20,072 bases of DNA from Ramlibacter sp. (GTDB lineage: Bacteria > Pseudomonadota > Gammaproteobacteria > Burkholderiales > Burkholderiaceae_C), in contig JAMPXR010000004.1 of NCBI GenBank assembly GCA_023701085.1, forward strand, positions 1 to 20,072, given 5' to 3'. A model generated the notes under the pieces. That model was given only the letters and a program-made list of their open reading frames with translations. It ran no database searches and was not told where the DNA came from. The position numbers and the translations under genes are program-made. Below, in pieces: positions 1,936-20,072 of the stretch. How positions within the stretch are numbered: position 1 is the stretch's first letter; each line of letters opens with the position of its first letter.

Positions 1936-1938
1936 CGT

Positions 1939-2769: not shown

Positions 2770-2789
2770 ATGACCTTCTCTTCTGAGAT

Positions 2790-3209: not shown

Positions 3210-3219
3210 GGCCGATTCG

Positions 3220-3660: not shown

Positions 3661-3671
3661 CGAGGGCCACC

Positions 3672-4856: not shown

Positions 4857-4871
4857 CTCAGCCTTTCGTGA

Positions 4872-5666: not shown

Positions 5667-7222
5667 CAGGCAACCTTTCTTTCGCGGCCTTCCCAGAAGG
5701 GGGCGCGCAGTGCAGTCTTGAGAATCTTGCCGGCGCCGGACAACGGCATGGCGTCGATAAGGGACACCTGGCGCGGGCATTTGTAGCTGGCGATACGTTC
5801 CTTGCAGTGGGTCACGATCTCTTCCGGCGTGACGTCCTGCCCCGGCTTGCGCACGATGAAGGCGTGCACCATCTCGCCCCACTGGTCATTGGGCACGCCG
5901 ATCACGGCACACGAGGCCACGGCCGAGTGGGTGGCAATCACGCCTTCGACCTCGGCGCTGTAGACGTTCTCGCCACCGGTGACGATCATGTCCTTGATGC
6001 GGTCAACGATGTACACGTAGCCGTCGGCATCCATGCGGCCGCCATCGCCGGTGAACATCCAGCCGTCGCGCACCGCCGCGGCAGTCTCGGCCGGCTTGTC
6101 CCAGTAGCCCATCATGACGCCGGGACCACTCACCGCGATTTCGCCGACCTCGCCGCGCGGCACTTCCTTGCCCAAGGCGTCGACGATGCGGACTTCGCAA
6201 CTGATCGCGGCGCGCCCGCCCGAGCGGTGGCGACCCAGCTTGCGGCCCGCCGCACGGTGCATCTCCTGGGTTAGGATGGTCGCCGTCGGCGACAGCTCGG
6301 TCATGCCATAGAGCTGGGTAAAGCCGGCCGAGGGGATCGTCTTCATCGCGCGGTCCAGCAGGCCCTCGCCGATCGGCGAGGCGCCGTACAGCATGTTGCG
6401 CAGGGTGTGCAAATCGTAACGTGGCAGCTCCGGATAGTCCACGAGCATCTGAATCATGGTGGGCACCAGCAAGGCCTCGCTCACCCGCTCGCGCTGAATC
6501 GCCTCCAACACCGCGGTCGGCTCGAAGCGCGGCACCATCACGTGGCAACCGCCGCTGGCCAACATGGCGTTCATGAAGCAGCCGTCGGCCAGGTGGAACA
6601 TGGGCGCGGCGTGCAGGCCGGTGCAACCGCGCTGGATCGCACCCTCAGCCACCATCGCCACCGAATTCACGAATATGTTGCGGTGCGAAAGCATCACGCC
6701 CTTGGGCGAGCCGGTGGTGCCGCCGGTGTAGAACACGCCAGCCAGGTCCTCCCCACCGCGCAGTGCGTCTTCCACCGGGTCCGCGGCTGCCACCAGTGCC
6801 TCGTACGACAGCATGCCGGCCGGCGCGGCGCCGTCGCCTATGTGAATGACCGTTTGCAGCTCGGGGCTGCGGCGCCGCAGGTCCTCGATCATGCCGGCGA
6901 ATGCATCGTCCACCAGCAGGATGCGCGTCTGGCAGTCGGTCAGCGAGTAGGCGATCTCGGCGGCGCTCCAGCGCGTGTTGATCGGGTTGACGACCCCACC
7001 GGCCCAGTAGGTCCCCAGGTAATACTCCAGGTACCAGTCGGAGTTGAGTGCGAGCATGCCGACGCGGTCGCCGGCCGCGAGCCCCACCTGGCGCAGCGCA
7101 CCGGCCAGTTTCGCCACGCGCTGGCCTAGCTCGGCGAAACTGCGCTTGCGGCCCTGGTAGATGGTGGCGATGGCATCCGGCGTCTGCTGAATCGAGCGGG
7201 AAAGGTTCTGCGTGAGGTGCAT
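5666..7222 (-). CDS. Acyl-CoA synthetase (AMP-forming), second of two
   Basis: A 518-aa adenylate-forming enzyme. The P-loop-like YTGGTTGSPKG is at 165-175, LYGMTE at 304-309, the hinge region around MFTGDGG (389-395) with DRIKDMIVTGGENVYS at 407-422, and the catalytic lysine in SGAGKILK (Lys499). It would activate a carboxylic acid to its CoA thioester through an acyl-AMP. A GAGGAGA ribosome-binding site precedes the ATG. It lies 16 nt after the acyl-CoA dehydrogenase gene and overlaps the following crotonase start by one base. It differs clearly from the other ligase at 9953-8409, so the two may act on different acids, for example the starting compound and a shortened product. Confidence 0.9.
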   Translation of the reverse strand: MHLTQNLSRSIQQTPDAIATIYQGRKRSFAELGQRVAKLAGALRQVGLAAGDRVGMLALNSDWYLEYYLGTYWAGGVVNPINTRWSAAEIAYSLTDCQTRILLVDDAFAGMIEDLRRRSPELQTVIHIGDGAAPAGMLSYEALVAAADPVEDALRGGEDLAGVFYTGGTTGSPKGVMLSHRNIFVNSVAMVAEGAIQRGCTGLHAAPMFHLADGCFMNAMLASGGCHVMVPRFEPTAVLEAIQRERVSEALLVPTMIQMLVDYPELPRYDLHTLRNMLYGASPIGEGLLDRAMKTIPSAGFTQLYGMTELSPTATILTQEMHRAAGRKLGRHRSGGRAAISCEVRIVDALGKEVPRGEVGEIAVSGPGVMMGYWDKPAETAAAVRDGWMFTGDGGRMDADGYVYIVDRIKDMIVTGGENVYSAEVEGVIATHSAVASCAVIGVPNDQWGEMVHAFIVRKPGQDVTPEEIVTHCKERIASYKCPRQVSLIDAMPLSGAGKILKTALRAPFWEGRERKVA

Positions 7223-7238
7223 ATGTTCTCCTCGGGAA

Positions 7239-8405
7239 TCAAATCTGGCGTCCGAGGGCGCGCGCGATGATCTCCTTCATGATCTCGCTGGCGCCGCCGT
7301 AGATGCGCTGCACGCGGGCATCCGCGTACAGGCGAGCGATCGGGTACTCCATCATGTAGCCGTAGCCGCCGTGCAGCTGCAGGCATTCGTCCGCGACCTT
7401 GCCGAGCATCTCGGTGGTCCACAGCTTGGCCACCGCCGCCGAATCGGGGTCCATGGTGCCGTCGACCACCCGCTGGATGCAGGCGTCGACGAAGGTGCGG
7501 CCGACGAGCGCCTGCGCCTTCACCTCGGCAAGCTTGAAGCGCGTGTTCTGCAGCTCGAATAGTTGTTTGCCAAATGCCTTGCGTTCGCGGGTGTAGTCCA
7601 GCGTGAGCCTCAGAGCCGCTTCGGCGGAGGCGATGGCGCTCGCCGCGCACAGCGTGCGCTCGTAGGGCAGCTCGTTCATCAGTTGGACGAAGCCCTGCCC
7701 TTCCATGCCGCCTAGCAGGTTGGCCGCCGGCACGCGCACATTATCGAAAAATAGCTCGCTGGTATCGGCCGACTTCTGCCCCAGCTTGTCCAAGATGCGG
7801 CCAACCTTGAAGCCCGGCGCATCGCGGGTCTCCAGCAACAGCAGCGACATGCCCTTGCTGCCCGCGGCAGGATCGGTCTTGACGACGACCACTATCAGGT
7901 CGGCCATCGAGCCGTTGGAGATGAAGATCTTGCTGCCATTGATGACGTACTCGTCGCCGCGCAGTTCGGCGCGGGTGCGCACGGCCTGCAGGTCCGAGCC
8001 TGCGTTGGGCTCCGTCATGGCGATGGCGCCGATCATCTTGCCCGAAGCCATCTGCGGCAGGTACTTGCGCTTCTGCTCCTCGGTGCCCTTGTGCAGGATG
8101 TAGTTGCAAGCAATGGAGTGCACGCTCAGGCCAAATCCGTAGTCGCCGGCGTAGGCCAGTTCCTCCATCACAGTCACCACGTGGGCGAAGGTGCCGCCGC
8201 CGCCTCCGTATTCCTCGGGTATGTCGGCCAGCAGCAGCCCGAGCTCGCCCGCCTTGTCCCAGGCGCGGCGATCCACGTGCTGCTGCTTCATGAAACGCTC
8301 CAGGTGCGGCGTGATCTCCTCGGCCACGAAACGGCGCGCCGTTTCGCGGAACATCTCGAGGTCAGCATCGATCCAGGGGCTGCGGTAATCGGGTTGTCGA
8401 TTCAT
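7239..8405 (-). CDS. Acyl-CoA dehydrogenase
   Basis: A 388-aa FAD-dependent acyl-CoA dehydrogenase of usual length. AMTEPNAGSD (129-138) and the C-terminal LQLHGGYGYMMEYP block are the family signatures. The position that is Glu376 in MCAD (YEG) is Gly here (IYGGASEI). Glu249 in NELPYERTLCA matches the alternative catalytic base used by isovaleryl-CoA and long-chain dehydrogenases. This favours a branched or bulky acyl-CoA as substrate. It introduces the alpha-beta double bond and passes electrons to ETF, which is not encoded in the window. The gene starts 3 nt after the preceding ligase, with AAGGAAG upstream. Confidence 0.92.
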   Translation of the reverse strand: MNRQPDYRSPWIDADLEMFRETARRFVAEEITPHLERFMKQQHVDRRAWDKAGELGLLLADIPEEYGGGGGTFAHVVTVMEELAYAGDYGFGLSVHSIACNYILHKGTEEQKRKYLPQMASGKMIGAIAMTEPNAGSDLQAVRTRAELRGDEYVINGSKIFISNGSMADLIVVVVKTDPAAGSKGMSLLLLETRDAPGFKVGRILDKLGQKSADTSELFFDNVRVPAANLLGGMEGQGFVQLMNELPYERTLCAASAIASAEAALRLTLDYTRERKAFGKQLFELQNTRFKLAEVKAQALVGRTFVDACIQRVVDGTMDPDSAAVAKLWTTEMLGKVADECLQLHGGYGYMMEYPIARLYADARVQRIYGGASEIMKEIIARALGRQI

Positions 8406-8408
8406 GGT

Positions 8409-9953
8409 TCACTTCCTTGCGGTGTCGTAGCGCTCGACCAGTAGGAACTTCTTTACTTTGCCGGTAGGCGTGCGCGGCAGCGGTTCGGCCTGCAGCAGCA
8501 CTCGCTTCGGGGTCTTGAAGCCGGCCAGGCTCTGGCGGCAGGCCGCGATCACGATATCGGGGTCGACTCGGGCACCCTCGGCGGGAACCACTACCGCGGT
8601 GACGGCCTCGCCCCAGAGCGGGTCGCTTAGGCCTATCACGGAGCAGTCCGCCACGCCCGGCACGGCGAGGATTGTTTCCTCCACCTCCCACGCGTGCACG
8701 TTCTGGCCACCGGTGACGATCACATCCTTGAGGCGCCCATTGATGAAAAGGTAGCCCTCCTCGTCCATTCGACCCAGGTCGCCGGTATGCAGCCAGCCAT
8801 CACGGAAGGTCTCGGCCGTCCTTTCGGCATTCTTGTGATAGGCCGTCACCGCGCTGGGAGAGCGACCGACGACGGCGCCGGTCGCACCGACCGGGACATC
8901 CCTGCCCTCGCTATCCAGAATTCGCACTTCCGCGAAAATAATGGCGCGGCCCACCGAGTCGGCCCGCCTGCGGCGGTCTTCCGGCGTGCTCACCACCAGC
9001 GTGCAGGATTCCTGCATGCCGTAGTACTCGTAGATGCCGGGGCAAATGCGCTCCAGCACGCCTTCGCGCACGGGCGCGGGCAGCAGTGATCCGGCGAACA
9101 CCACGGCGCGCAGCGAACTCAGGTCGGTTCTTGTCAGTTCCGGCGCCGCCAGCAGCATCGCGCCCATGGTTGGCACTAAGTTGGTGATGGTGACCTTCTC
9201 GCTCTCGATCAGCTTAAGCGCCTCGGCAGCGTCAAAGTTCATCAACACATTGCGGATGCCGTACATAACCGAGAACGCCAGCCAGCAGAAGCCGACCCGG
9301 CCGTACATCGGGAACACCGTCAACACCACATCCTGGCGACTCAGGTCGAGGCTGAGCGACATATTGAACAGCGTGGCGTTGTTGTAGTGACTGATGATGT
9401 AGCACTTGGGCAGGCCGGTGGTGCCCGAGGTGAGGTTGTAGTAGTACGGGTCGTGCTCGTGCACTTCCACCGTCGGCTCGCTCGCTGCGGCCGCTTCGAG
9501 CAGCGCCTCGTAATCGTGGCCGGTGCCCTCTCCCTCGCCGAACCCCACGTGAATCGTCACCTGGGGCAGCTCAGTGGAAGCGGCCTGCGCCACCTGCGCG
9601 AACTTGCGCTCGTATAGCAGAGCCGAAGCGCCGATGTCCTTCATCAGCGCGATCATCTCCACCAGCGCCAGGCGGTAATTGAGTGGAATGCCCACCAAGC
9701 CCGACTTTGCCAGTGCGAAGTAAATCTCGGCAATCTCTGTGCGGTTGGTGGAGAGAAAGGCGACGCAATCGCCTTTCCTGAGGCCCAGTCCCGCCAGGGA
9801 ATTCGCCAGCCGGTTACAGCGCTCGTTGACCTGCGCGAAGGTGGAGCGCCGGCCGGTGGCCGTGCAGAAAAGGGCTTCCCGCGGGCCGTGTGTGACTGCC
9901 GCTGTGGTCAGCAGGTTGCCGACGGTCAGGTGCCCCAGTCCAGATCGCTTCAT
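8409..9953 (-). CDS. Acyl-CoA synthetase (AMP-forming), first of two
   Basis: A 514-aa adenylate-forming CoA ligase. The motifs are TSGTTGLPK (175-183), YEYYGMQE (308-315), GWLHTGDLG (386-394), GRLKDVIVTGGQNVH (406-420) and PTGKVKK with Lys499. The start at 9953 is preferred over an in-frame upstream extension because GAGGAGG lies 5 nt upstream and the extension overlaps the preceding crotonase gene. It is placed directly before the acyl-CoA dehydrogenase gene. Likely role: activation of the imported acid. The unusual TSGTTGLPKCYIIS, with Cys184 in place of the common Gly, is a small deviation. The substrate is unknown. Confidence 0.9.
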   Translation of the reverse strand: MKRSGLGHLTVGNLLTTAAVTHGPREALFCTATGRRSTFAQVNERCNRLANSLAGLGLRKGDCVAFLSTNRTEIAEIYFALAKSGLVGIPLNYRLALVEMIALMKDIGASALLYERKFAQVAQAASTELPQVTIHVGFGEGEGTGHDYEALLEAAAASEPTVEVHEHDPYYYNLTSGTTGLPKCYIISHYNNATLFNMSLSLDLSRQDVVLTVFPMYGRVGFCWLAFSVMYGIRNVLMNFDAAEALKLIESEKVTITNLVPTMGAMLLAAPELTRTDLSSLRAVVFAGSLLPAPVREGVLERICPGIYEYYGMQESCTLVVSTPEDRRRRADSVGRAIIFAEVRILDSEGRDVPVGATGAVVGRSPSAVTAYHKNAERTAETFRDGWLHTGDLGRMDEEGYLFINGRLKDVIVTGGQNVHAWEVEETILAVPGVADCSVIGLSDPLWGEAVTAVVVPAEGARVDPDIVIAACRQSLAGFKTPKRVLLQAEPLPRTPTGKVKKFLLVERYDTARK

Positions 9954-9964
9954 GGGTTGCCTCC

Positions 9965-10732
9965 TCAGCGCTTGTTGGCGAAGGCCTCGATGGCCTGCTT
10001 GTGGAAAGGCGTGGAGAAGCACTCCTTCTCCAGCGCCAGCGAGGTGTCGAGCACCAGGCTCACGGCGTCGCGCACCAGCTTGTTGACCGATAGCTTGGTG
10101 GACCGGATGGCCAGGCGCGAACCGCGGGCCAGACGTTGAGCCAGGGCCTGGGCTGCGGGCAGGACTTCCGCCGCCGGCAGCACCTTGTTGACCAGACCGA
10201 TGCGCTCGGCTTCAGCGGCCGTCATGGCGTCGCCGGTCATCAGGTATTCCTTGGCGCGAGCCGGTCCCACCAGCAGCGGCCAGATCGCCGCGCCGCCATC
10301 GCCAGCGGTGACGCCGATCCGCACATGGGGGTCAGCGATCTTGGCGCCGTCGGCCACATAGACCACGTCGCAGAACAGGGCCAGCGTGGCCCCCAGCCCG
10401 GCGGCAACGCCGTTGACGGCGGCGACGATGGGCTGCGGCAGATCCACCAGATCCACGATGATCTTGCGGGCCTCGATGAACAGCGCATCGAGCTGCAGAC
10501 CGCTGATGTTGCGGAACCACTCCAGGTCACCGCCGGCGGAGAAAGCGCGCCCCTCACCGGTCAGGACCACGGCGTCCACGGTGCGGTCGGCTGCGATCTC
10601 GCCGAACACGCGCGAAAGCTCCGTGTGCAGTTTCTCGCTCACCGCATTGAGCGCCTCGGGGCGGTTCAGTTTGACGGTCAGGACAGCGCCTTCCTGGCTG
10701 AAGGCGAGGGTCTCGTATTTGGCGTAGTTCAT
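9965..10732 (-). CDS. Crotonase-family enoyl-CoA hydratase/isomerase
   Basis: A 255-aa crotonase. AFSAGGDLEWF (63-73) and NGVAAGLGATLAL (107-119) form the oxyanion hole. Neither classical catalytic Glu is evident: Thr116 and His136 occupy the approximate positions, while VTAGDGGAAIW offers Asp145. The C-terminus LEKECFSTPFHKQAIEAFANKR is typical of the family. The start at 10732 fits the family N-terminus. An alternative ATG at 10759 would overlap the SDR stop as TGATG and add nine residues, and neither has a strong ribosome-binding site. It sits between an SDR and a ligase. Whether it hydrates, isomerises or does another crotonase reaction cannot be settled from the sequence. Confidence 0.87.
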   Translation of the reverse strand: MNYAKYETLAFSQEGAVLTVKLNRPEALNAVSEKLHTELSRVFGEIAADRTVDAVVLTGEGRAFSAGGDLEWFRNISGLQLDALFIEARKIIVDLVDLPQPIVAAVNGVAAGLGATLALFCDVVYVADGAKIADPHVRIGVTAGDGGAAIWPLLVGPARAKEYLMTGDAMTAAEAERIGLVNKVLPAAEVLPAAQALAQRLARGSRLAIRSTKLSVNKLVRDAVSLVLDTSLALEKECFSTPFHKQAIEAFANKR

Positions 10733-10758
10733 GGATATCCAAAAAAGAATTCGGCGCA

Positions 10759-11508
10759 TCAGACGGAAGCGGTGACGCCCCCATCGACGGCGAAACTGGA
10801 ACCGGTGACATAGGAGGCGCGCTCGGAGGCGAGCCACACGACCATCTCGGCCACCTCCTCGGGCCGCGCCATTCGACGCAGCGCCACCCGGTCGACGGCG
10901 GCGGCGATCTTCTTCTGTGGAAAGATCGTTTCCTCGCCCACCGTCATCGGCGTCTCGATGTAGCCGGGACACACGGCGTTGACGCGGATGCCGTGGCGTG
11001 CGTACTCCAGTGCAGCGGCCTTGGTCAGACCGATCACGCCATGCTTGGCCGCACAGTAGGCCGAGCCGCCGGGCGAGGCTACGAGGCCCATGATCGAGGC
11101 GGTGTTGACGATGGCGCCGCCGGTGTCCTGCATGGCAGCGATCTCGGCGCGCATGCAGTTGAAGACGCCTGTGAGATTGACGTCCAGCACACGCTGCCAC
11201 TGCGCCAGGGTGTGATCGCCCAGCAGCAACGCGTATCCTGCGATGCCCGCGTTGTTGAAGGCGGCATCGAGTCGGCCGAAGCGCTCCAATGTGCGCCCGA
11301 CCAGAAACTGGCAATCCTCCTCGCGCGTCACATCGGTGCGCACGAAAAGGGCCTGTGCGCCCTGCGCCTCAAGCAGTCGCACGGTATCGCGGCCGCCGGC
11401 TTCGTTGATGTCGGCAACGACGACCGCATGGCCGTCGGCCGCAAGCCCGAGCGCCGCGGCCTGGCCTATGCCGGAGCTTGCGCCGGTGACGAGGGCTATT
11501 TTGGTCAT
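10759..11508 (-). CDS. SDR-family dehydrogenase (first of two)
   Basis: A 249-aa classical SDR. The motifs are GASSGIG at 9-15, FNNAG near 84-88, Ser138 in NTASIMG, Tyr151-xxx-Lys155 in YCAAK, and CPGYIETPM further on. Its ATG overlaps the stop of the binding-protein gene as ATGA, so it is translationally coupled to the transporter component. Likely an NAD(P)-dependent 3-hydroxyacyl-CoA or alcohol dehydrogenase. With another SDR at 2769-1939, the cluster can serve two hydroxyl oxidations, perhaps in two rounds of beta-oxidation or an early alcohol step. The substrate is unknown. Confidence 0.87.
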   Translation of the reverse strand: MTKIALVTGASSGIGQAAALGLAADGHAVVVADINEAGGRDTVRLLEAQGAQALFVRTDVTREEDCQFLVGRTLERFGRLDAAFNNAGIAGYALLLGDHTLAQWQRVLDVNLTGVFNCMRAEIAAMQDTGGAIVNTASIMGLVASPGGSAYCAAKHGVIGLTKAAALEYARHGIRVNAVCPGYIETPMTVGEETIFPQKKIAAAVDRVALRRMARPEEVAEMVVWLASERASYVTGSSFAVDGGVTASV

Positions 11509-12719
11509 CCCGCCTTCTTCACCAGGGGACAGTCGGACTCGAACAGCGGCTTCCAGCTCTGCTCGGCAGGCACCATCTCGAGGATCTTGTAGACGTCCCA
11601 CGGACCCTTGGACTCGGCGGGCCTCTTGACCTGCGCGATGTACGACTGCCGCATGACGCGGCCGTCCTCACGGATGCGAACGTTATCCGAGTAGAAATCG
11701 TTGACCGGGATCTCGCGCATCTTGGCGCGCACCACGTCCGGGTCCTTCGTGCCCGCGGCTTTCACCGCCTTCAGGTAGTGGGACACGGCGCTGTAGGTGC
11801 CCGCGTGCGCTTCGGTCGGCATGGCCTTGTTGCGTTCGTAGAAGCGGTTGGCGAAGGCACGAGTCTTGTCGTTCAGGTCCCAGTACCACACTGTGGAGAA
11901 CATCGTGCCCTGCGCGGTCGGCAGCCCCAGCGCCCGAACCTCCGAGATCAGCAGCGCCAGCGCGATCAGTTTCTGGCCCTTGGCGCCCATTTGGTACTCG
12001 TTCCACTGCTTGATGGCATTCACGGTGTACTGGGTGCCGTTGGACAGCGCCACCGCATCGGCTTTGGAGGCGGATGCCTGCATGAGGTAGGAGGAGAAAT
12101 CGGAGGTATTGGGCGCGTGCTTGATCGTGCCCGTGACCTTGCCGCCCGCGCCGGTGACGGCCCTGGCGGTGTCTGCCGCGAGCGCCTGGCCGAATGCGAA
12201 ATCGGCGGCGATGATGTACCAGTTCTTGTCGCCCTTGCTCACCAGGCGCGACGGCAGCGCCTTGGAGAACATGTAGCTGTCGTGGCTCCACTGCGTGCCG
12301 TACGGGGAGCATGCGGACCCGGTGAAGGCGGAGCTGGAAGCGCCGGCGAAGAACACAAGCTTCTTCTTGTTCTTCGCAAGTTCCTGCACACCCATGCCGA
12401 CGGCGGAGTTGCCGATGTCGGCGATCACGTCCACGCCATCGCTCTCGTACCACTTGCGCGCCGTGGCCAGGCCGACATCGGGCTTGTTCTGGTGGTCGGC
12501 GAAGACCAGCTCGATATTCTTGCCCAGCGCTTGGCCGCCGAAGTCCTCGATCGCCATGCGCGCCGCGTCGACCGAGCCGGGGCCCAGGGCCTGCGCCAGG
12601 TAGCCAGACAGGTCCGTCAACACGGCGACCTTGACCGGGCCGTCCTCGGCGGCGTGGGACGCGCCACCCGCCAGCAGCGTGGCGGCGGCGAGTTGGATGA
12701 AGGTTCTGGTGAATTTCAT
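11505..12719 (-). CDS. HAAT-family periplasmic substrate-binding protein
   Basis: A 404-aa type-1 periplasmic binding protein (Peripla_BP_6, LivJ/K-like). It begins with a signal peptide: MKFTRT, a hydrophobic stretch, and cleavage probably after SHA at 23. The mature part opens with VKVAVLTDLSGYLAQALGPG, typical of the family. FTGSACSPYGTQWSHDSYM resembles binding proteins found beside aromatic and acyl-CoA catabolic genes rather than true leucine binders. ATG at 12719 is chosen because AAGGAG lies 6 nt upstream and the signal peptide then starts correctly. It follows livM by an 84-nt gap that carries a promoter-like motif, and overlaps the next SDR gene as ATGA. It should capture the pathway's acid substrate and deliver it to LivHMGF. 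Confidence 0.92.
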   Translation of the reverse strand: MKFTRTFIQLAAATLLAGGASHAAEDGPVKVAVLTDLSGYLAQALGPGSVDAARMAIEDFGGQALGKNIELVFADHQNKPDVGLATARKWYESDGVDVIADIGNSAVGMGVQELAKNKKKLVFFAGASSSAFTGSACSPYGTQWSHDSYMFSKALPSRLVSKGDKNWYIIAADFAFGQALAADTARAVTGAGGKVTGTIKHAPNTSDFSSYLMQASASKADAVALSNGTQYTVNAIKQWNEYQMGAKGQKLIALALLISEVRALGLPTAQGTMFSTVWYWDLNDKTRAFANRFYERNKAMPTEAHAGTYSAVSHYLKAVKAAGTKDPDVVRAKMREIPVNDFYSDNVRIREDGRVMRQSYIAQVKRPAESKGPWDVYKILEMVPAEQSWKPLFESDCPLVKKAG

Positions 12720-12745
12720 TGAGTCTCCTTGGTGGTGGGTGTCGT

Positions 12746-12792
12746 ATGTTCGGGCGCGCAACCCGCGCCCGCCTCGTTCGAAGGAACAGTTC
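12746..12792 (-). promoter_or_regulatory. Promoter/operator-like motif, copy B (upstream of binding protein)
   Basis: Read on the minus strand, GAACTGTTCCTTCGAACGAG (12792-12773) is followed after exactly 20 nt by CGAACAT (12752-12746), 26 nt before the ATG at 12719. The spacer holds a hairpin with 7-bp arms, GGGCGCG and CGCGCCC, around GGTTG. This site would drive the binding-protein gene and the catabolic genes downstream. Confidence 0.6.
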
Positions 12793-12803
12793 TGCAAGTT
12801 GGG

Positions 12804-13769
12804 TCAGAGCGGCCTGCGCAGCCGATGCGCGAGCTCACCGACGATGCCGCGGCGAAAGCCCAGTACGCAAGCCATGAAGATCACTCCCTGGATCACCATG
12901 ACCCATGTGTCGAGGTGGGCGAGCCAGTTGTCCATGGCGACGATGATGGCCGCGCCGACGACCGGCCCAAGCAGTGTGCCCAGGCCGCCCAGCAGCGTAA
13001 TGAGAACCACCTCGCCGGACATGCCCCAGTGCGCGTCCGGTAGCGCCGCCAGCTGAAACACAAGTGTCTTCGTGGCGCCGGCCAAGCCGGCCAGCGCTGC
13101 CGAAATGACGAAGGCCAGCAGCTTGTAACGAGCCACCTTGTAGCCCAGCGATATGGCGCGTGGCTCGTTCTCGCGGATCGCCTTCAGGACCTGGCCGAAG
13201 GGCGAATGAACGGCTCGCCAGACTACGAAAAAGCCGAACAGGAAGATCGCGAACACGAAGAGGTACATCGCCGTCATGTTCTCCAAGTCAATCACGCCGA
13301 ACAGGCGGCCGCGCGGCACGCCCTGCAGGCCATTCTCCCCGCCGGAGAACGGCGCCTGCGCCACCAGGAAGTACACCATCTGCGCGATGGCCAGCGTGAT
13401 CATGGCGAAATAGATGCCTTGGCGCCGGATAGCGAGCAGTCCGCTCGCCAGGCCCAGCGCCGCCGCGCAGGCGCTGCCAAACAGCACCGCCAGTTCCGGC
13501 GTGACGCCCCAGGCCTTGGCGGCGTAACCGGCGCTGTACGCCGCGATGCCGAAGAACATCGCATGCCCAAAGGACAGCAGGCCGGCGAAGCCGATCAGCA
13601 AGTTGAAGGCGCAGGCGAACAGAGCGAAACACATCACCTTCATCAGGTACACCGGATAGATCACCAGCGGGGCCAGCGCGAAGAAGGTGACCATCACGGC
13701 GATCGCGGCGAGCTGCCCGCGCGCGGGGCTCAGCCTGGCGGCAGGTACGGGAATGGTCATGGAAGTCAT
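12804..13769 (-). CDS. livM: HAAT ABC transporter permease (LivM-like)
   Basis: A 321-aa inner-membrane permease with about 8-10 hydrophobic segments. FACAFNLLIGFAGLLSFGHA is the LivM-family N-terminal signature. AIRENEPRAISLGYKVARYK forms the cytoplasmic coupling loop contacting the ATPase. The start at 13769 overlaps the livH stop as ATGA, and upstream in-frame extensions would run through livH. With LivH it forms the translocation pore for the imported acid. It is followed by an 84-nt gap before the binding-protein gene. Confidence 0.92.
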   Translation of the reverse strand: MTSMTIPVPAARLSPARGQLAAIAVMVTFFALAPLVIYPVYLMKVMCFALFACAFNLLIGFAGLLSFGHAMFFGIAAYSAGYAAKAWGVTPELAVLFGSACAAALGLASGLLAIRRQGIYFAMITLAIAQMVYFLVAQAPFSGGENGLQGVPRGRLFGVIDLENMTAMYLFVFAIFLFGFFVVWRAVHSPFGQVLKAIRENEPRAISLGYKVARYKLLAFVISAALAGLAGATKTLVFQLAALPDAHWGMSGEVVLITLLGGLGTLLGPVVGAAIIVAMDNWLAHLDTWVMVIQGVIFMACVLGFRRGIVGELAHRLRRPL

Positions 13770-14662
13770 GCCGAAATCTCCGATTTGTTGGCGAACAGCC
13801 CATTGGGTTTGACCAGGATGACCAAGGCCATCATCACAAACACGACGACGCCCGCCGCCTCGGGGTAGTACACCTTGGTCAGCCCCTCCACCAGGCCAAG
13901 GCCGAAGCCGGCGACGATGGAGCCGAAGATGGAGCCCATTCCGCCGATCACGACCACCGCGAACACCACGATGATCATTTCGGTGCCCATGAGCGGCGCC
14001 ACTTGGTAGATCGGCGCGGCCATCACGCCTGCAAAGGCGGCGATGCCGACGGCGGCAGCGTAGGTCAGGGTCAGCATGCGCGGCACGTTGACGCCGAAGG
14101 CCTGCACCAGCTTCTGGTTCTCGGTGGCGGCGCGCAGGTAGCCACCAAGCCGGGTGCGCTCGATCAGGAACCAGGTAGCGATGCAGATGGCGAGCGAGGC
14201 GACGATGACCCACACGCGGTAGTGCGGCAGGAACATGAAGCCCAGGTTATGGCCGCCCGCGAGCTGCTCGGGGATGGTGTACGGCATGCCGGCGGAGCCG
14301 TACTGGCCCAGGAACACGCCCTGGATCACCAGCCCTAGGCCGAAAGTGAACATCAGGCTGTACAAGTGGTCGATGCGGTACAGGCGCGAGAGCATGGTGC
14401 GCTCGACGGCCACGCCGATCGCGGCCACCACCAGCGGCGCGATCAGCAGCGCCCACCAGTAGCCCAGGCCCGCCTTGTTTAGCAGCAGCCAGGCTACGAA
14501 GGCGCCGAACATATACTGCGCGCCGTGGGCGAAATTGACTACGCGCAGCAGGCCGAAGATGATCGCCAGTCCGAGGGAGAGCAGCGCGTAGAATGACCCG
14601 TTGATCAGGCCGATCAGCACCTGTCCCATCAGGGCCAGAAGTGGGACGCCGAATATGTCCAA
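13766..14662 (-). CDS. livH: HAAT ABC transporter permease (LivH-like)
   Basis: A 298-aa inner-membrane permease with LINGSFYALLSLGLAIIFGL and RVVNFAHGAQYMFGAF near the N-terminus, both LivH signatures. ERTRLGGYLRAATENQKLVQ gives the coupling loop. The start codon is TTG at 14662, supported by AGGAG located 7 nt upstream and by the usual LivH N-terminal length. It begins 10 nt after livF and overlaps livM by ATGA. It functions in the membrane together with LivM. Confidence 0.92.
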   Translation of the reverse strand: MDIFGVPLLALMGQVLIGLINGSFYALLSLGLAIIFGLLRVVNFAHGAQYMFGAFVAWLLLNKAGLGYWWALLIAPLVVAAIGVAVERTMLSRLYRIDHLYSLMFTFGLGLVIQGVFLGQYGSAGMPYTIPEQLAGGHNLGFMFLPHYRVWVIVASLAICIATWFLIERTRLGGYLRAATENQKLVQAFGVNVPRMLTLTYAAAVGIAAFAGVMAAPIYQVAPLMGTEMIIVVFAVVVIGGMGSIFGSIVAGFGLGLVEGLTKVYYPEAAGVVVFVMMALVILVKPNGLFANKSEISA

Positions 14663-14672
14663 TTGAATGCTC

Positions 14673-15377
14673 CTAGACGCCGAGCCGCTCGTGCAGCGTT
14701 TCCATGCGCGCGGGCAGCTGCGACGCGCCGAAGCTCTCGACCATGCGGCCGCCCTCCATCACGTAGAAGCGGTCCGCCAGGGGTGCAGCGAAGCGAAAGT
14801 TCTGTTCCACCATCACCACGGTGAAGCCCTGCTCACGCAAGCGCCCGATGGCGCGGCCGATCGCCTGCACGATTACCGGCGCGAGGCCCTCGGAGATCTC
14901 GTCCAGCAGCAGCAGCTTGGCGCCCGTGCGCAGGATGCGTCCGAGTGCGAGCATCTGCTGCTCGCCGCCAGACAGCCGCGTGCCCGGGCTGTGGCGGCGC
15001 TCCAGGAGGTTGGGGAACAGCTCGAAGATCTGCGCGAGCGACATGCCGCCGGGCGCGACCACGGGCGGCAGCAGCAGGTTTTCCTCGCAGGACAGGGCGG
15101 CGAAAATGCCGCGCTCCTCCGGACAGTAGCCGATCCCGTGGCGCGCCACCTTATGCGGCGCGGCCCCCACGATCTCGGCGCCCTGCATGCGGACGGAGCC
15201 GGTGCAGCGGCCGACCAAGCCCATGATCGCGCGCAGCATGGTCGTGCGGCCGGCGCCGTTGCGGCCCAGCACAGTCACAACTTCGCCACGCCGCACATCG
15301 AAGTCGACGCCGTGCAGCACGTGCGATTCGCCGTACCAAGCGTGCACGTCGCGCAGGCTCAGGTGTGTTTCAGCCAT
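14673..15377 (-). CDS. livF: HAAT ABC transporter ATPase (LivF-like), Walker A Lys to Arg
   Basis: A 234-aa ABC ATPase. The Walker A region reads GRNGAGRTT (38-46), where the normally invariant lysine is Arg44 (codon CGC). The signature LSGGEQQ (135-141), Walker B LLLLDE (155-160) and the switch segment MVEQN are intact. The start at 15377 overlaps the end of livG by 8 nt, which is the usual arrangement. LivF pairs with LivG to power the permeases. The Arg in Walker A might weaken ATP hydrolysis at one site of the heterodimer. Some HAAT ATPases may naturally carry Arg here, so it may not be a defect. Confidence 0.92.
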   Translation of the reverse strand: MAETHLSLRDVHAWYGESHVLHGVDFDVRRGEVVTVLGRNGAGRTTMLRAIMGLVGRCTGSVRMQGAEIVGAAPHKVARHGIGYCPEERGIFAALSCEENLLLPPVVAPGGMSLAQIFELFPNLLERRHSPGTRLSGGEQQMLALGRILRTGAKLLLLDEISEGLAPVIVQAIGRAIGRLREQGFTVVMVEQNFRFAAPLADRFYVMEGGRMVESFGASQLPARMETLHERLGV

Positions 15378-16149
15378 GGGCGCCCTCCAGCACGGCCTGC
15401 TCACTGCCCATGTAGGCCTCCAGCACCTGCGGATGCGTCGAGACCTCGGCATACGAGCCCTCAGCGATGATTCGGCCGCGCTGCAGCACGCTGATCGTGT
15501 CGGCGATGCGAGCGACGACGCTCATGTTGTGCTCCACCATCAGCACCGTGTGATCTGCGGCGACGCGCTTGATTAGCTCCGTGACACGGTCAATGTCCTC
15601 GTGACCCATCCCCTGCGTCGGTTCATCGAGCAGCAGCAGCTTGGGGTCCGCGGCCAGCGTAGTGGCGATCTCCAGCGCCCGCTTGCGGCCGTACGGCAGC
15701 TCGCCGGCGGGGACCGCGGCGAAGCTGTGCAGGTCCACCGTGCGCAGTAGCTCCAATGCGCGCTCGTTCAGGGCATCGAGGGTGCTTTCGCGTTTCCAGA
15801 AGTGGAAGGACGTGCCCAGCTTGCGCTGCAGCGCGATGCGCAGGTTTTCCAGTGCGGTGAGGCTGGGGAAGACGGCGGAGATCTGGAAGGAGCGCACCAT
15901 GCCCTTGCAGGCGACGTCGGCCGGCCCGTCGCTGGTGATGTCCTTGCCATCGAACACGATGGTGCCGCGCGTGGGCTGCAGGAATTTCGTGAGCAGGTTG
16001 AAAACGGTGGTCTTGCCGGCCCCATTGGGGCCGATCAGGGCATGGATGTACCCGCGCCGGACGCACAGATTGACGCCGTCCACGGCGATGAAGCCGCTGA
16101 ACTCGCGCACCAGGCCTTGGGTTTCCAGGATGTAGGTTGGGGAATGCAT
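15370..16149 (-). CDS. livG: HAAT ABC transporter ATPase (LivG-like)
   Basis: A 259-aa ABC ATPase. Walker A GPNGAGKTT (40-48), Q-loop Gln near 89, signature LPYGRKR (151-157), Walker B LLLLDEP (171-177) and the H-loop in MVEHN (His207) are present. The signature starts LPYG instead of the common LSYG, a mild deviation. The start at 16149 is chosen because the protein then has the normal LivG N-terminus and GGGTGA lies 6 nt upstream. A longer in-frame extension would overlap the crotonase gene. The gene opens the transporter block and is preceded by a promoter-like motif at 16177-16223. Confidence 0.92.
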   Translation of the reverse strand: MHSPTYILETQGLVREFSGFIAVDGVNLCVRRGYIHALIGPNGAGKTTVFNLLTKFLQPTRGTIVFDGKDITSDGPADVACKGMVRSFQISAVFPSLTALENLRIALQRKLGTSFHFWKRESTLDALNERALELLRTVDLHSFAAVPAGELPYGRKRALEIATTLAADPKLLLLDEPTQGMGHEDIDRVTELIKRVAADHTVLMVEHNMSVVARIADTISVLQRGRIIAEGSYAEVSTHPQVLEAYMGSEQAVLEGAHG

Positions 16150-16176
16150 GTCGTTCACCCGTTGCGGGGTGGCACA

Positions 16177-16223
16177 ATGTTCGCGTCGAAGCTGCCGGCG
16201 CCTCTCGTCCGAACGGATAATTC
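16177..16223 (-). promoter_or_regulatory. Promoter/operator-like motif, copy C (upstream of livG)
   Basis: Read on the minus strand, GAATTATCCGTTCGGACGAG (16223-16204) is followed after exactly 20 nt by CGAACAT (16183-16177), 27 nt before the livG ATG. The 20-mer matches copy A at 16 of 20 and copy B at 15 of 20 positions. The downstream heptamer is identical to that of copy B. It is probably an activator site with its -10 region. Confidence 0.55.
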
Positions 16224-16228
16224 GCTCC

Positions 16229-16244
16229 CCCGGGTTTTCCCGGG
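16229..16244 (-). terminator. Hairpin directly after the crotonase stop
   Basis: The minus strand reads CCCGGG-AAAA-CCCGGG immediately after the TGA of the 17018-16245 gene. Six GC pairs with a four-base loop can form a stable stem. No T-run follows, so it may be a weak or factor-assisted terminator, or an RNA-stability element separating the crotonase from the transporter unit. Confidence 0.4.
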
Positions 16245-17018
16245 TCAGGCGCCCTGCTGGGTGCGGCCGAGCGTGAGCACGCCCAGCCGGCGCGCCTCGA
16301 TCGACGCGCAGGACACCGCCGCGTTGAAAGCCTGTGCCTGCTGCTGCTCGATTCGCAGCGCCTGCGGGAACGGTGCGTCGAAGCCATCGTCGATCAGCTT
16401 GCGGTAGGCCGCGAGCAGGCCGGGGGCAAGCGACTGCATGTCGCGCGCGAGCGCGCATGCGGCCGGCAGCAGCTCCGCCGCCGGCAGCACGCGGTTGACG
16501 AGGCCCCACGCGTACGCGGTATGCGCGTCAAGGTAGTTACCGGTGAGCGAAAGCTCCTTCGCACGCCCGATGCCGATCAGGCGACTGAGGCGCTGGCTCA
16601 GGCCCCAGACCGGCAGCAGGCCCACGCGCCCGTGCGTGTCGGCAAAACGCGCGTTCTCGGAGGCGAGCAGCATGTCGCAGCCGAGGGCGAGCTCGAAGCC
16701 ACCCGCAGCAGCCACGCCGTTGATCGCGCCGATCACCGGCCCAGAGAACGAACGCAGCGCCTCGACGGGCGAGCGGGCCGCCAGCACGGAGCGCAGCGCG
16801 TCGTCGCTGGCGCCTATTTCCTTGAGGTCCAGGCCCGCGCAGAATGCGCTGCCTGCGCCGGTCAGCACCAGTACCTGCACGTCCGGCGCCTCGGCGAGTT
16901 CTTGTACCACGGCCGCGAGCGCAGCCCGAAGTGCCTGCGACAGGGCGTTGCGCGCTTCCGGGCGGTTCAGGGTGACGACCGCATATCCCTGGTCGCGGTC
17001 GATGGTGAGCACGGGCAT
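16245..17018 (-). CDS. Crotonase-family enoyl-CoA hydratase
   Basis: A 257-aa crotonase. SAFCAGLDLKEI (57-68) and NGVAAAGGFELALGCD (100-115) form the oxyanion hole. Glu109 in GGFELAL aligns with the first catalytic glutamate of rat enoyl-CoA hydratase, while His129 in FADTHGRVGLLP stands where the second glutamate would be. The motif FADTHxRVG is shared by a recognisable subgroup of bacterial enoyl-CoA hydratases. AGAGGAG lies 8 nt upstream of the ATG. It sits alone between the regulator and the transporter genes, with its own promoter-like motif (17049-17095) and a hairpin after its stop, so it is probably a separate transcription unit or a leader gene of the cluster. Confidence 0.88.
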   Translation of the reverse strand: MPVLTIDRDQGYAVVTLNRPEARNALSQALRAALAAVVQELAEAPDVQVLVLTGAGSAFCAGLDLKEIGASDDALRSVLAARSPVEALRSFSGPVIGAINGVAAAGGFELALGCDMLLASENARFADTHGRVGLLPVWGLSQRLSRLIGIGRAKELSLTGNYLDAHTAYAWGLVNRVLPAAELLPAACALARDMQSLAPGLLAAYRKLIDDGFDAPFPQALRIEQQQAQAFNAAVSCASIEARRLGVLTLGRTQQGA

Positions 17019-17048
17019 GGCTGGAGCTCCTCTTGTACAGAGTCCGCG

Positions 17049-17095
17049 ATGATCACCGGGCGGCGCGCCGCCGGCCTCGTTCGAAAGGACAGTTC
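17049..17095 (-). promoter_or_regulatory. Promoter/operator-like motif, copy A (upstream of crotonase)
   Basis: Read on the minus strand, GAACTGTCCTTTCGAACGAG (17095-17076) is followed after exactly 20 nt by TGATCAT (17055-17049), 30 nt before the ATG at 17018. The spacer contains the 14-bp palindrome GGCGGCGCGCCGCC. The 20-mer matches copy B at 18 of 20 positions. Confidence 0.6.
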
Positions 17096-17107
17096 GCCGC
17101 CGCTTCT

Positions 17108-19813
17108 TCAGGGCACCAGGCCGAGCTGCCGCGCCATCGCCACCGCGTGCGTGCGGCTTTGTGCCGCCAGCTTCACGTTCATGCTGCGCAGGTGAGCCTT
17201 GACTGTGGTCTCGGAGACGAATAGCCGGTCGGCGATCTCCTTATTGCGATGGCCCTCCGCCAGCAGGCGCAGCACCTGCAACTCCCGCTCAGACAGCAGA
17301 CTGGCGGCAGCGGCAGCGGGCGCCGGCGGGGGCGCCGCATCTCCCGAGGGAGCCACGGCGATGCCGCCTGCGGCCAGCACGGAGGCGGCGAAGGCCGCCA
17401 GCGCGTCGCCCGGCGGCAAAGAGTCGCGCAGCTCCGTCACTCGCCGCAGCATGTCCGGCCCCTCGTCGACGAAGGTGCGCACGAACCCTTCGCCGGCGGC
17501 GAAGTGGAGCGCATCGCGCAGCCGACGCATGCCCAGCGCCGACTGCCCTGACTGGCACAGCGCCTCGGCCAGCAGGAGGTTCAGCTTGTGAGCGCGCCGG
17601 TGTCGCTGCTGCGCATCGGCGGCGCGTATCGCCTCCTTGAGCGGCGCCACCGTGGATTCGGCGCGGCCGGTGCGGATCTTGAACCGCAGCGCCGCGATGA
17701 ATGGCGCGTCGACATCGTTGCCGTGCGTCACCAGTCCGTCGAACGGCGCCCAGGTGCGTTCATCACTGCCGCTGGCGAGCTTGTCGCGCGCGAAATCGAC
17801 GCGGCCCCGCATCAGCGCCAGCCGCGCTCGCTCGAGGCGCGCAGACGCCACCAGCCGCGGCAATCCGTTGCGGTGCCCGGTCACTTCCATCTCCGCCAGC
17901 AGTTCCTCGACATCCTCGCCACGCGCCGCCGCGCAGCGCGCCAGCACCCTGTAGCTGGTGATCAGCTGGTCCGGCGCGGCCGCGTCCTTGAGCATCGGCA
18001 GGTACAGCTTCAGCAGCCGCTCGGCCTCGTCGAGCTGATGGCTTTCATACAGTGCCTCGGCCAGGAACGCCGCCGCTACGGCACCGCCGGCCTGCTGCAG
18101 CACGTTGTCCGTGCCGCCGGCCAGCGCCGCGCGGAAGCGCGATGTGGCGCCGCGCAGCCGGCCCTGCGCGAACTCGATCGCGCCCTCGAGGCACAGCGTC
18201 ATGGGGACAATGAAGGAGCCACCGATTTCGCCCACCCGCTCGCGTGCCTGCGCCAGAAGCTGGCGCGCCTCGTCGAACCGGCTCTCGGCCACTAGGCAGT
18301 AGCCGTAGGAGGCCCCCAGCATGCCGTACGAGAAAGGCCGGTCCGGCGTCACCCGCGGCAGCACTTCGCGCCACTGCGCAGCCGCTTCGCGAACGCGATC
18401 GGTCATCGCCAGGATGAAGGCACGCTGCGCGCCGTCGGAAGTGGCAAAGGGCTCCGGTGGCACCGCGCCGGCCGCTCGTCCGGCCTGCAGGCCGTCCAGG
18501 AGCTTGAGGCTCTCCTGGTACCGATGCGTGAGCGTCAGGGCCCACGCAAAGGTGAGCGCGAGCATGGGATCACGCGCCACCCGCTCACTCACTTGTGGCG
18601 CGGCATACCAACGCGCCAGCGTGCGGGCTCGCCCTCGCCAGAGCGTCTGCTCCGCATGCTCGGCGAGCAGCTGCATCAGGAAGGCCGGCTCTTCCGCGTG
18701 CAGCGCGTGCTCGATCGCCCGCGCGGGCTGCCCCTGGTCCAGCCACCACTGCGCCGCGCGACGGTGCAGCCGCGGGATCTCACGAGGAGCCGACTGCGCG
18801 ATCTGCGCCCGCAGGAAACCGGCAAAGAGGGGGTGGTAACGGTACAGCCCCCTCTCGGGGTCCTGCGCGGCGAGAAAGAGGTGGGCCCGCTGCACGGCCG
18901 CCAGCAGCTCGCCGCTGTCGGAGATTTCCAGCAGGTAGTCGCACATCGGCGCGCTCAGCTCGCCCAGCACGCTGGTACGAACCAGGAAGTCGCGCAGGCG
19001 CGGCGGCTGCCGCGACAGCACATCTTCAACCAAGTAGTCGGCGATTGGTCCGCTAGAGCCGTCGAACGTGGCGACAAACTGCTGAGGGTCCGGGCGATCG
19101 CGCAGAGCCAACGAGACGAGCCACAGCGCGGCTGGCCAGCCTTCCGTGCGCTGCTGCAGGCGCAAGATGTCGTCGTTGCGCAGCGCCAGACCGCGCTGCT
19201 GGCGCAGGAAGGCCGCCGTTTCTGTTGAGGTGAATCGCAGTTCCGCGGGACGGATCTCCAGCAGCTTGCCGTGCGCGCGCAGCCGGCCAATGCCGATGTC
19301 CGGCACGCTGCGCGAGCCCACCAAGATCTGGCATTCGGCCGGCAGGTAGTCCACCAACTGACGCACGAGCCCCAGCACCACAGGGCTTTCGATGGCCTCA
19401 AAGTCGTCAAGGAAAAGCACGAAGCGGCCCTTCACTGCGGACAACCGCGCAGCGAGGCTCAGCACGGCGGCGTCGCTATCACCTTCAACCGCAGCGGCGC
19501 CAGGCGACAACGAGGGTTCGATCGCTCGTAGCGCCTCCACCATGTACGCCAGGAAGTGGCCGACCTCATTGTCCGCGCGGTCCAGCGTCAGCCAGCCCGT
19601 GGCGACACTGCGGCTGCGCAGCTGCGCGTAATACTGCAGCATGACCGTTGTCTTGCCAAATCCGGCGGGACCGTGCACAAGTACCAGCGCGGCCTCTTCG
19701 GCCGACCGGATGAGGTCGATTATCTGGGTGCGCGGGACGGGGCGCGGTGAGCTGAGCCGCGGATGGAGCTTGGCAAGGGCCATGTGCCGCGCGCCCGGGA
19801 TGTCTGTCTGCAC
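17108..19813 (-). CDS. MalT/LAL-type ATP-dependent LuxR-family regulator
   Basis: A 901-aa protein, the same size as MalT. An N-terminal STAND-type ATPase has Walker A GPAGFGKTT (48-56) and Walker B FVLFLDDFE (131-139). A long central helical repeat region (about 400-800, TPR-like) follows. The last 63 residues (839-901) are a LuxR helix-turn-helix containing LSERELQVLRLLAEG and NKEIADRLFVSETTVKAHL. Such regulators switch on transcription when ATP and an inducer are bound. The start is GTG at 19813, with GAAGG 6 nt upstream. An ATG ten codons later lacks a good ribosome-binding site. It heads the cluster in the same orientation, so it likely activates it, with the acid or its CoA ester as inducer. 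This is inferred from position only. Confidence 0.9.
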   Translation of the reverse strand: MQTDIPGARHMALAKLHPRLSSPRPVPRTQIIDLIRSAEEAALVLVHGPAGFGKTTVMLQYYAQLRSRSVATGWLTLDRADNEVGHFLAYMVEALRAIEPSLSPGAAAVEGDSDAAVLSLAARLSAVKGRFVLFLDDFEAIESPVVLGLVRQLVDYLPAECQILVGSRSVPDIGIGRLRAHGKLLEIRPAELRFTSTETAAFLRQQRGLALRNDDILRLQQRTEGWPAALWLVSLALRDRPDPQQFVATFDGSSGPIADYLVEDVLSRQPPRLRDFLVRTSVLGELSAPMCDYLLEISDSGELLAAVQRAHLFLAAQDPERGLYRYHPLFAGFLRAQIAQSAPREIPRLHRRAAQWWLDQGQPARAIEHALHAEEPAFLMQLLAEHAEQTLWRGRARTLARWYAAPQVSERVARDPMLALTFAWALTLTHRYQESLKLLDGLQAGRAAGAVPPEPFATSDGAQRAFILAMTDRVREAAAQWREVLPRVTPDRPFSYGMLGASYGYCLVAESRFDEARQLLAQARERVGEIGGSFIVPMTLCLEGAIEFAQGRLRGATSRFRAALAGGTDNVLQQAGGAVAAAFLAEALYESHQLDEAERLLKLYLPMLKDAAAPDQLITSYRVLARCAAARGEDVEELLAEMEVTGHRNGLPRLVASARLERARLALMRGRVDFARDKLASGSDERTWAPFDGLVTHGNDVDAPFIAALRFKIRTGRAESTVAPLKEAIRAADAQQRHRRAHKLNLLLAEALCQSGQSALGMRRLRDALHFAAGEGFVRTFVDEGPDMLRRVTELRDSLPPGDALAAFAASVLAAGGIAVAPSGDAAPPPAPAAAAASLLSERELQVLRLLAEGHRNKEIADRLFVSETTVKAHLRSMNVKLAAQSRTHAVAMARQLGLVP

Positions 19814-19840
19814 CTGGTGCCTTCAATGTACTGCACTCCC

Positions 19841-19846
19841 ATTGTA
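19841..19846 (-). promoter_or_regulatory. Possible -10 box for the regulator gene
   Basis: The minus strand reads GGC-TACAAT-GGG here, close to the sigma-70 -10 consensus and 27 nt before the GTG start. No good -35 hexamer is seen at the expected spacing. The 110 nt between the start codon and the terminal repeat hold no other gene. Confidence 0.3.
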
Positions 19847-19923
19847 GCCGCCGGGTCATGGGCAGCTGAGCGCCATCACAAGTTAGAGTTGAGGTTGCTC
19901 ACCCGCGGCCTGGCTTCAAGGTA

Positions 19924-20072
19924 GGGGTGGTCGTACTTTCGGTGCGGAATGACACGGTAGTGCCAGAAATTTCCCTTTAAATCAAAGACTTACGAATTCA
20001 GTTCGTGCGCAGACAGTTCAAGTTCGTAAGTCCTTGTCGCACAATAACGTTTCTACCCCAAGCGCACCGATT
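19924..20072 (-). repeat. Right 149-bp terminal inverted repeat (Tn3/IS1071-like end)
   Basis: This is the exact reverse complement of 1-149. It starts at its inner edge with GGGGTGGTCG. The five bases next to the inner edge are AGGTA on this side, and on the left side the adjoining plus-strand bases are ATTTC. They do not match as a target duplication. That is expected if the two ends belong to separately inserted copies of one insertion sequence. Confidence 0.9.
19987..20032. repeat. Palindrome inside the right terminal repeat
   Basis: This is the mirror copy of the 41-86 dyad: 10-bp arms GACTTACGAA and TTCGTAAGTC around a 26-nt spacer. It may bind the element's own recombinase or transposase; no known site was matched. 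Confidence 0.6.

Follow-up and report, generated by a model that had tools for sequence, protein, structure and literature searches.

The question raised by a gene cluster of Ramlibacter sp. (contig JAMPXR010000004.1, positions 1 to 20,072, the whole of which is here called the window) is why three related sequences of 20 bases recur, at a fixed distance from a short A/T-bearing motif, ahead of a crotonase gene, the importer gene livG and a binding-protein gene that neighbour the gene of a LAL/MalT-type regulator. Comparison with relatives of this regulator makes it very probable that the three 20-mers are MalT-type activator sites, lying over the -35 region with their centres at about -42.5, and that they belong to one regulon of Liv-type uptake and acyl-coenzyme A (CoA) breakdown. 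An earlier note on this DNA had proposed an activator site plus a -10 region for one regulon, with the adjacent MalT/LAL regulator as the candidate activator, and the comparative tests that were run support that proposal.

The three related 20-mers that the earlier note had placed on the minus strand are all present at those positions (Table 1), and 15 of their 20 columns are invariant, as it had counted. Each is followed after exactly 20 nucleotides (nt) by the predicted motif YGAWCAT, in the form TGATCAT for copy 1 and CGAACAT for copies 2 and 3, and then by an ATG (at 17018, 16149 and 12719) that starts 30, 27 and 26 nt further on, matching the 26 to 30 nt expected. No copy precedes the regulator gene within the 259 bases present before the window, which is a complete contig, ends, again in agreement with the note, and the next best place for the consensus in the window has 6 mismatches (in a search up to 6 mismatches). 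The copies sit in intergenic gaps of 89, 95 and 84 bases; because all three lie between reading frames, coding constraint is no explanation for them. The note's dismissal of chance is likewise borne out: the best ungapped three-way match of 20 columns among the three gaps, sought with no motif preset, has 15 identical columns, whereas 300 dinucleotide shuffles of the same gaps gave a mean of 8.74 (standard deviation 0.62) and a maximum of 11. The consensus, a pattern derived from the same data, has three matches in the window and none in 100 shuffles; at up to three mismatches it has exactly three matches in the draft of its own genome (3,099,125 bases in 543 contigs, 80.85% complete), all of them in the window, and its reversed control has one. 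The blocks common to the three gaps are an inverted repeat (dyad) within the 20-mer and the -10 hexamer, not the spacer between them.

A reading of the 20-mer as a directional element was dropped because relatives of the regulator show a dyad, and by that comparison the 20-mer is best described as a diverged inverted repeat of 16 bp of which the promoter-proximal half is better kept. Relatives of the regulator, with up to three candidates scored per genome, were found at an expect value (E) of up to 1e-60 in 10 of 300 genomes of the order, the window's own included; genomes called here without LAL are those with none at that threshold. The dyad was first seen by eye in 20-kilobase (kb) stretches around the ten regulators, and this prompted a dyad count. 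A single regulator protein as query gave no match against genome contigs; an alignment of the ten regulators (A1) as query yielded 80 named loci, the best 80 of 534. When all 1024 perfect half-sites of five bases were counted at 16 spacings (0 to 15) in these loci (1,602,051 bases), TCGTC-N6-GACGA was the first-ranked dyad, with 168 occurrences against 5.2 expected, in 63 of the 80 loci, near-copies such as Cupriavidus loci being included. Its central bases are TT/AA in 115 cases, AT in 43 and others in 10.

Promoter position was assessed with a sigma-70 -10 matrix slid over offsets 5 to 59 past 130 TT-centred sites from the 80 loci and nine further stretches (98 sites after removal of near-copies). 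The matrix peaks at offset 23 (z 6.1) and offset 24 (z 4.6). In 82 of the 98 non-redundant sites, the second and sixth bases of the hexamer (-11 and -7) are A and T at one or other of these offsets; the 44 other offset pairs give 6.3 such sites on average and at most 16. The AT-centred dyads, which are the same in both directions, peak at offset 23 on both sides; with -10 peaks on both sides, some dyads may therefore serve two promoters. A simple rule, some of whose assignments are doubtful, gave a downstream reading frame for 99 of 102 non-redundant sites. Ten targets, chosen as representative, were identified by Pfam as acyl-CoA ligase (two), thiolase, nitronate monooxygenase, CoA-transferase III, 3-hydroxyacyl-CoA dehydrogenase (two), SDR, acyl-CoA dehydrogenase and periplasmic binding protein, and in L125, L129 and L133 the site is, from coordinates, ahead of the regulator gene itself.

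The three window sites, which had been left out when the offset was set from the relatives, fall on the same 23/24 offset; for copy 2 the top-scoring hexamer of 49 offsets is AACATT at offset 24. If the hexamers of Table 1 occupy -12 to -7, the 16-bp dyad would extend from -50 to -35, centred on -42.5, and a -10 at offset 23 predicts a start about 35 nt past the dyad end, that is, near 17042 (copy 1), 16170 (copy 2) and 12739 (copy 3). Each 20-mer together with its YGAWCAT would then constitute an activator-dependent sigma-70 promoter. The LAL/MalT-type regulator would bind two half-sites that resemble the MalT box and together form an imperfect inverted repeat: YTRTYC-N4-GRACGA in the window, TCGTCG-N4-CGACGA in the family and TCATCC-N4-GGATGA in some relatives. 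The promoter-proximal half-site GRACGA would cover about -40 to -35, because the dyad centre is at about -42.5, and would replace the -35 box, while RNA polymerase would read a -10 of type KANNNT starting 23 bases on. Once bound, and activated by ATP and a ligand (probably the imported acid or the CoA ester of that acid), the regulator would induce three units in concert: the crotonase gene, the livGFHM importer, and the binding protein with the acyl-CoA catabolic genes. From the sequence comparison we infer binding, activation rather than repression, the exact starts and the ligand.

The nearest relatives of the regulator carry sites of the window type, one each. L055, whose regulator is 63% identical, has AAACTGTCCGTTTGAACGAG directly behind the regulator gene with TACTCT at offset 23, and L056, whose regulator is 54% identical and cut by the contig end, has AAATTGTCCGTTCGGACGAG in the same place with GAGGAT at offset 23. 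Behind the L055 site are a crotonase (76% identical to that of the window), an acyl-CoA dehydrogenase (78%), a ligase (69%), a thiolase (83%) and an SDR (73%), and no Liv genes within 13.3 of the 21.2 kb; the L056 site is followed by a binding protein (70%) and, after it, a crotonase (75%). Thus the gene that comes next after the regulator differs, catabolic genes in L055, the binding protein in L056 and the crotonase in the window, and the site keeps its place between the regulator gene and the following unit, whichever unit that is. The earlier note had named clusters that keep the genes and not the motif as evidence that would count against it; L055 and L056 keep several genes, at 69-83%, along with one site each. 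These comparisons exclude three window proteins of 18 (a ligase, a crotonase and a MaoC-like protein) that had been cut out of frame, and relatives of these are uncounted. In the third-nearest relative, L057 (regulator 51% identical), no site was found, on a contig that stops some 520 bases beyond the regulator gene. What can be read directly from the DNA is the presence of the sites, their geometry, their placement ahead of unit starts and their conservation beside the regulator gene. A search for further regulators of the window type, made with the L055 protein in 399 genomes of the order, gave only two besides the window's own, both at 43%. L055 and L100 come from metagenome bins titled Desulfovibrionaceae and Actinomycetes, whereas the other named hosts are nearly all Pseudomonadota, and mis-binning is possible.

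The proposed binder is a protein with the domain plan of MalT. Its residues 24-389 match the MalT structure 8bob (E 1.8e-44), and its Walker A motif, PAGFGKTT, is mostly invariant in the alignment A1. The nucleoside triphosphatase (NTPase) region matches Pfam AAA_16 slightly below cut-off (30.4 against 32.6) and AAA_22 above it (28.3 against 27), the MalT-like TPR region scores 108.5 bits (PF17874, cut-off 45), and the C-terminal GerE/LuxR helix-turn-helix (HTH), with the recognition helix TVKAHLRS, scores 70.4 bits (PF00196, cut-off 23.5). No autoinducer-binding domain of LuxR quorum sensing was found in the Pfam scan at E 0.001, in which the NTPase, TPR and HTH regions are matched. The protein scores 365.6 bits with the NCBIfam MalT equivalog, below the cut-off of 537, and is therefore by that test a MalT-type (LAL) regulator and not MalT; the genes around it are those of acyl-CoA, not maltose, metabolism.

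On the scale of genomes, the dyad followed after 23-24 bases by a -10 has 14 matches in the 300 genomes of the order: nine in four of the ten regulator-bearing genomes (G039, G049, G133 and G240), and five, one each, in 5 of the 290 others. The reversed control of this composite pattern has nine matches, once each in nine genomes, as read from the listing. The bare dyad with A/T ends, counted by eye, occurs 86 times in the 300 genomes and 18 times in the ten with LAL; it is a weak marker. Thirteen genomes with a dyad next to the regulator hold 117 dyads, often elsewhere in the genome, against 12 in the reversed control, which is not an unbiased rate because these genomes were chosen for a dyad at the LAL locus. 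Twenty regions around further dyads were inspected, 11 on the contig of the bait and nine on other contigs; three hold a LAL gene, one being the bait itself and two, on other contigs, further regulators of the R-T type described below. G093 and G285, with three dyads each, have no full-length LAL gene in the 40 kb taken from each, apart from one weak match of 428 amino acids in G093. A 38-kb contig from the genome of L129 (L192-L193) holds nine TT-centred dyads, several of them with a good -10, which may be a large regulon cluster; no LAL gene was found on that contig.

The form of the operator appears to follow the recognition helix. The helix residues after T-V/I were read in 91 regulators (those of the 80 named loci, ten of the order and that of the window), a set in which near-copies remain and at least one pair, L021 and L117, shares a contig. 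With an R-T helix, 61 of 65 loci have at least one TCGTC-N6-GACGA dyad; without R-T, 7 of 26 do. The dyads of K-type relatives, which were chosen by eye among candidates that include chance dyads, are TCATCCCTTTGGATGA (L069), TCATCCCTTCGGATGA (L074), TCGTTCCTTCGAACGA (L118), TGGTCCGTTCGGACCA (L019 and L134) and TCGTCCGATCGGACGA (L108 and L112), and an A/T-bearing hexamer stands at offset 23 or 24 in L069, L074, L118, L108 and L112. In a tree of 62 regulators computed with the helix region left out, the window groups with L055 and L056, then with L057, then with the K-type group, and the R-T label needs three changes. The dyad of L019 (1983-1998) and L134 (18630-18645) is perfect, and AAGAAT at offset 23 from it points away from the ligase gene. 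In the K-T relatives L015 (117-175) and L065 (near 19369), a site ahead of a gene of 406-407 amino acids, with no clear -10 at offset 23, is followed about 30 bases on by an apparent second, imperfect copy (TCCATCC..TTCG..CGATGA).

Several of these results weigh against the reading of the sites as operators of a LAL activator. The window half-sites differ from the exact family form. Four of the 65 R-T loci are without the TCGTC dyad, the dyads of L019 and L134 have no good -10 towards the acyl-CoA ligase gene, L015 and L065 have none at the usual offset, and the TT-centred sites show a weaker -10-like peak at offset 23 on their opposite flank as well (z 3.7). The composite pattern is absent from the window's own genome and from five others of the ten that bear the regulator. 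In the 290 genomes that lack a regulator match there are 68 bare dyads, about three times as many as the reversed control gives in all 300 (22). For the association of helix and dyad, a Fisher value of 2e-10 overstates the link because there are only three independent contrasts; of the three independent pairs, an average of 1.9 are in agreement with the dyad and 1.1 are neutral, with none in disagreement, and significance is out of reach. As read from these sequences, the helix-operator link is an agreement between clades and no statistical proof.

It is unlikely that the dyads are the operator of a different regulator encoded elsewhere, such as a TetR-type fatty-acid repressor, and that the LAL neighbour is coincidental. 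Palindromes are common among repressor operators, bare dyads exceed the reversed control also in genomes without a match to LAL, many dyads in the 13 genomes are far from the bait LAL gene, and 17 of the 20 regions around such dyads are without a LAL gene, a result that fits a trans-acting regulon and is no demonstration of one. However, no other regulator was found among the 18 window genes scanned, the dyad is first-ranked in regions selected by LAL alone, its form tracks LAL clades, the composite of dyad and -10 is concentrated in LAL genomes (9 of 14 matches in 4 of 10, against 5 of 14 in 290), and a repressor site would need no fixed distance of 23-24 bases to a -10 in place of a -35 box. 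Slightly less probable still is that the LAL regulator binds the dyads but chiefly represses, or both represses and activates. The Streptomyces LAL regulator SCO6993 is reported to be a repressor at palindromic sites (PMC9628970), but the predicted position over -35 is that reported for MalT-type activation in Actinoplanes (34.4 +/- 1.0 nt, with deletion reducing expression; PMC7567727), and AlkS, too, is reported to activate (PMC8784404). That the three gaps share merely a chance likeness, a repetitive element or a transcribed RNA structure is scarcely credible: GC-rich inverted repeats in the spacers of copies 1 and 3 and a hairpin-like CCCGGG-AAAA-CCCGGG ahead of copy 2 might suggest as much, but none of the 300 shuffles came near the observed match, the three copies are the only ones in the genome draft, sites like them recur in L055 and L056, and the blocks in common exclude the spacer. 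An RNA element was also rejected on the ground that the two Rfam matches in 12500-20072 are both under the gathering score and away from the sites.

Table 1. Sites, putative promoter elements and genes of the window
Feature	Positions	Strand	Remarks
20-mer copy 1, GAACTGTCCTTTCGAACGAG	17076-17095	minus	ahead of crotonase
20-mer copy 2, GAATTATCCGTTCGGACGAG	16204-16223	minus	ahead of livG
20-mer copy 3, GAACTGTTCCTTCGAACGAG	12773-12792	minus	ahead of binding-protein gene
Putative operator dyad in copy 1, CTGTCC-TTTC-GAACGA	17077-17092	minus	
Putative dyad in copy 2, TTATCC-GTTC-GGACGA	16205-16220	minus	
Putative dyad in copy 3, CTGTTC-CTTC-GAACGA	12774-12789	minus	
Putative -10 hexamer GATCAT, copy 1	17049-17054	minus	offset 23-28 from dyad end; best of 49 offsets is 23
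Putative -10 hexamer GAACAT, copy 2	16177-16182	minus	offset 23 second-best of 49
Putative -10 hexamer GAACAT, copy 3	12746-12751	minus	offset 23 best of 49
LAL/MalT-type regulator, 901 amino acids	17108-19813	minus	NTPase region, TPR_MalT, C-terminal GerE HTH; proposed binder of the three sites
Crotonase / enoyl-CoA hydratase family gene	16245-17018	minus	first gene behind copy 1; ECH_1
livG, livF, livH (two ABC-transporter ATPases, first permease)	13766-16149	minus	unit behind copy 2; ABC_tran, BCA_ABC_TP_C, BPD_transp_2
livM, second permease	12804-13766	minus	ends unit behind copy 2; BPD_transp_2
Periplasmic binding protein	11505-12719	minus	first gene behind copy 3; Peripla_BP_6
Acyl-CoA catabolic genes	898-11523	minus	follow binding-protein gene, same strand

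The catabolic genes, assigned by Pfam for 9965-11523 and by NCBIfam for 898-9953, comprise an SDR, a crotonase, two acyl-CoA ligases, an acyl-CoA dehydrogenase, a further crotonase, a lipid-transfer (SCP2-type) thiolase, two Had/MaoC-like hydratases, a second SDR and a CaiB-like CoA-transferase. The thiolase (693.8 bits against 436) and the ligase at 5666-7222 (517.7 against 476) pass curated NCBIfam cut-offs; the hydratases, SDR, second ligase, acyl-CoA dehydrogenase, crotonase and CaiB-like transferase are family matches below theirs. The SCP2-type thiolase stands beside the pair of Had/MaoC-like hydratases at 2790-4856, with the acyl-CoA dehydrogenase and the CaiB-like transferase near, a set that resembles those for breakdown of branched or sterol side chains. 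No regulator match at E up to 1e-180 was found in any of three genomes of the same genus (G391, G490 and G563), and therefore the cluster may be patchy or acquired. The hairpin-like repeat ahead of copy 2 (16227-16244) may be the terminator of the crotonase unit; the spacers with GC-rich inverted repeats are at 17056-17075 (copy 1) and 12753-12772 (copy 3).

In Escherichia coli, the MalT box is centred at -37.5 or -38.5. Its sequence is given as GGA(T/G)GA, with the 5' end cited at -34.5 to -35.5 (PMC7567727); the GGACGA of copy 2 is one base from this consensus (from its GGATGA form) and the GAACGA of the other two window sites is two bases off. The E. coli protein shares with the window regulator the plan of NTPase, TPR_MalT and GerE domains and, as predicted for the window, a box at -35, but its boxes are described as repeats of one hexamer, whereas those of the window form an inverted pair, and the window is not a maltose regulon (PMC7567727, PMC9628970). 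A similar layout is reported from Actinoplanes sp. SE50/110, where the MalT motif TCATCC-5nt-GGATGA lies over -35 and ends 34.4 +/- 1.0 nt before 17 mapped starts, and where deletion of the MalT-like regulator lowers, and its overexpression raises, expression of a large cluster, binding being assumed (PMC7567727). There, as is proposed for the window, the regulator is encoded among many co-regulated promoters, and inverted hexamers over -35 have their 3' end about 34-35 nt before the start, which for the window is predicted. The K-type relatives L069 and L074 use the very hexamers of Actinoplanes, TCATCC and GGATGA; the window differs in its spacer (4 nt instead of 5), in its hexamers (YTRTYC and GRACGA in place of the exact motif) and in its targets, which are genes of acyl-CoA catabolism and of Liv-type uptake. 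Also comparable is AlkS of Pseudomonas putida GPo1 and Alcanivorax, described as an activator of the LuxR/MalT type that controls a cluster for hydrocarbon catabolism through an inverted repeat ahead of the promoter; that repeat is of 20 bp, and the genes are alkane genes (PMC8784404). SCO6993 of Streptomyces coelicolor is likewise a LAL regulator with footprints on palindromes; unlike the regulator proposed here it is reported as a repressor, of 606 amino acids, for which its authors could not predict a consensus (PMC9628970). By analogy, the window promoters look as if they work in the manner of MalT and AlkS, as variants with a spacer of 4, diverged hexamers and other genes.

LAL regulators have been termed a poorly studied family (PMC3282765), and literature searches of titles and abstract openings, in which few subscription papers are covered, returned no description of the present operator for this LAL group, the search by dyad letters giving unrelated papers only. 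MalT-type activator promoters are already known; what the window set would add is a testable family-wide operator code. As a tentative proposal, to which somewhat less than even weight is given, a large LAL group of Burkholderiales and relatives may have an operator code that can be read: a change of the helix from TV-K-x to TV-R-T would accompany a change of the half-site from MalT-like forms (TCATCC, TCGTTC, TGGTCC) to TCGTCG, with the -35 position fixed; the TV-K-A operator of the window group would be lopsided, with the polymerase-side half kept; and the regulators would jointly govern breakdown of branched or cyclic acids by SCP2-thiolase/MaoC-type beta-oxidation. For a whole subfamily, the sequences show a site, where it stands in the promoter and how it seems to be linked to the recognition helix; testable regulons are offered in named strains (of Cupriavidus, Variovorax, Marinobacter, Delftia and others), and an uptake-plus-breakdown cluster is assigned one likely regulator.

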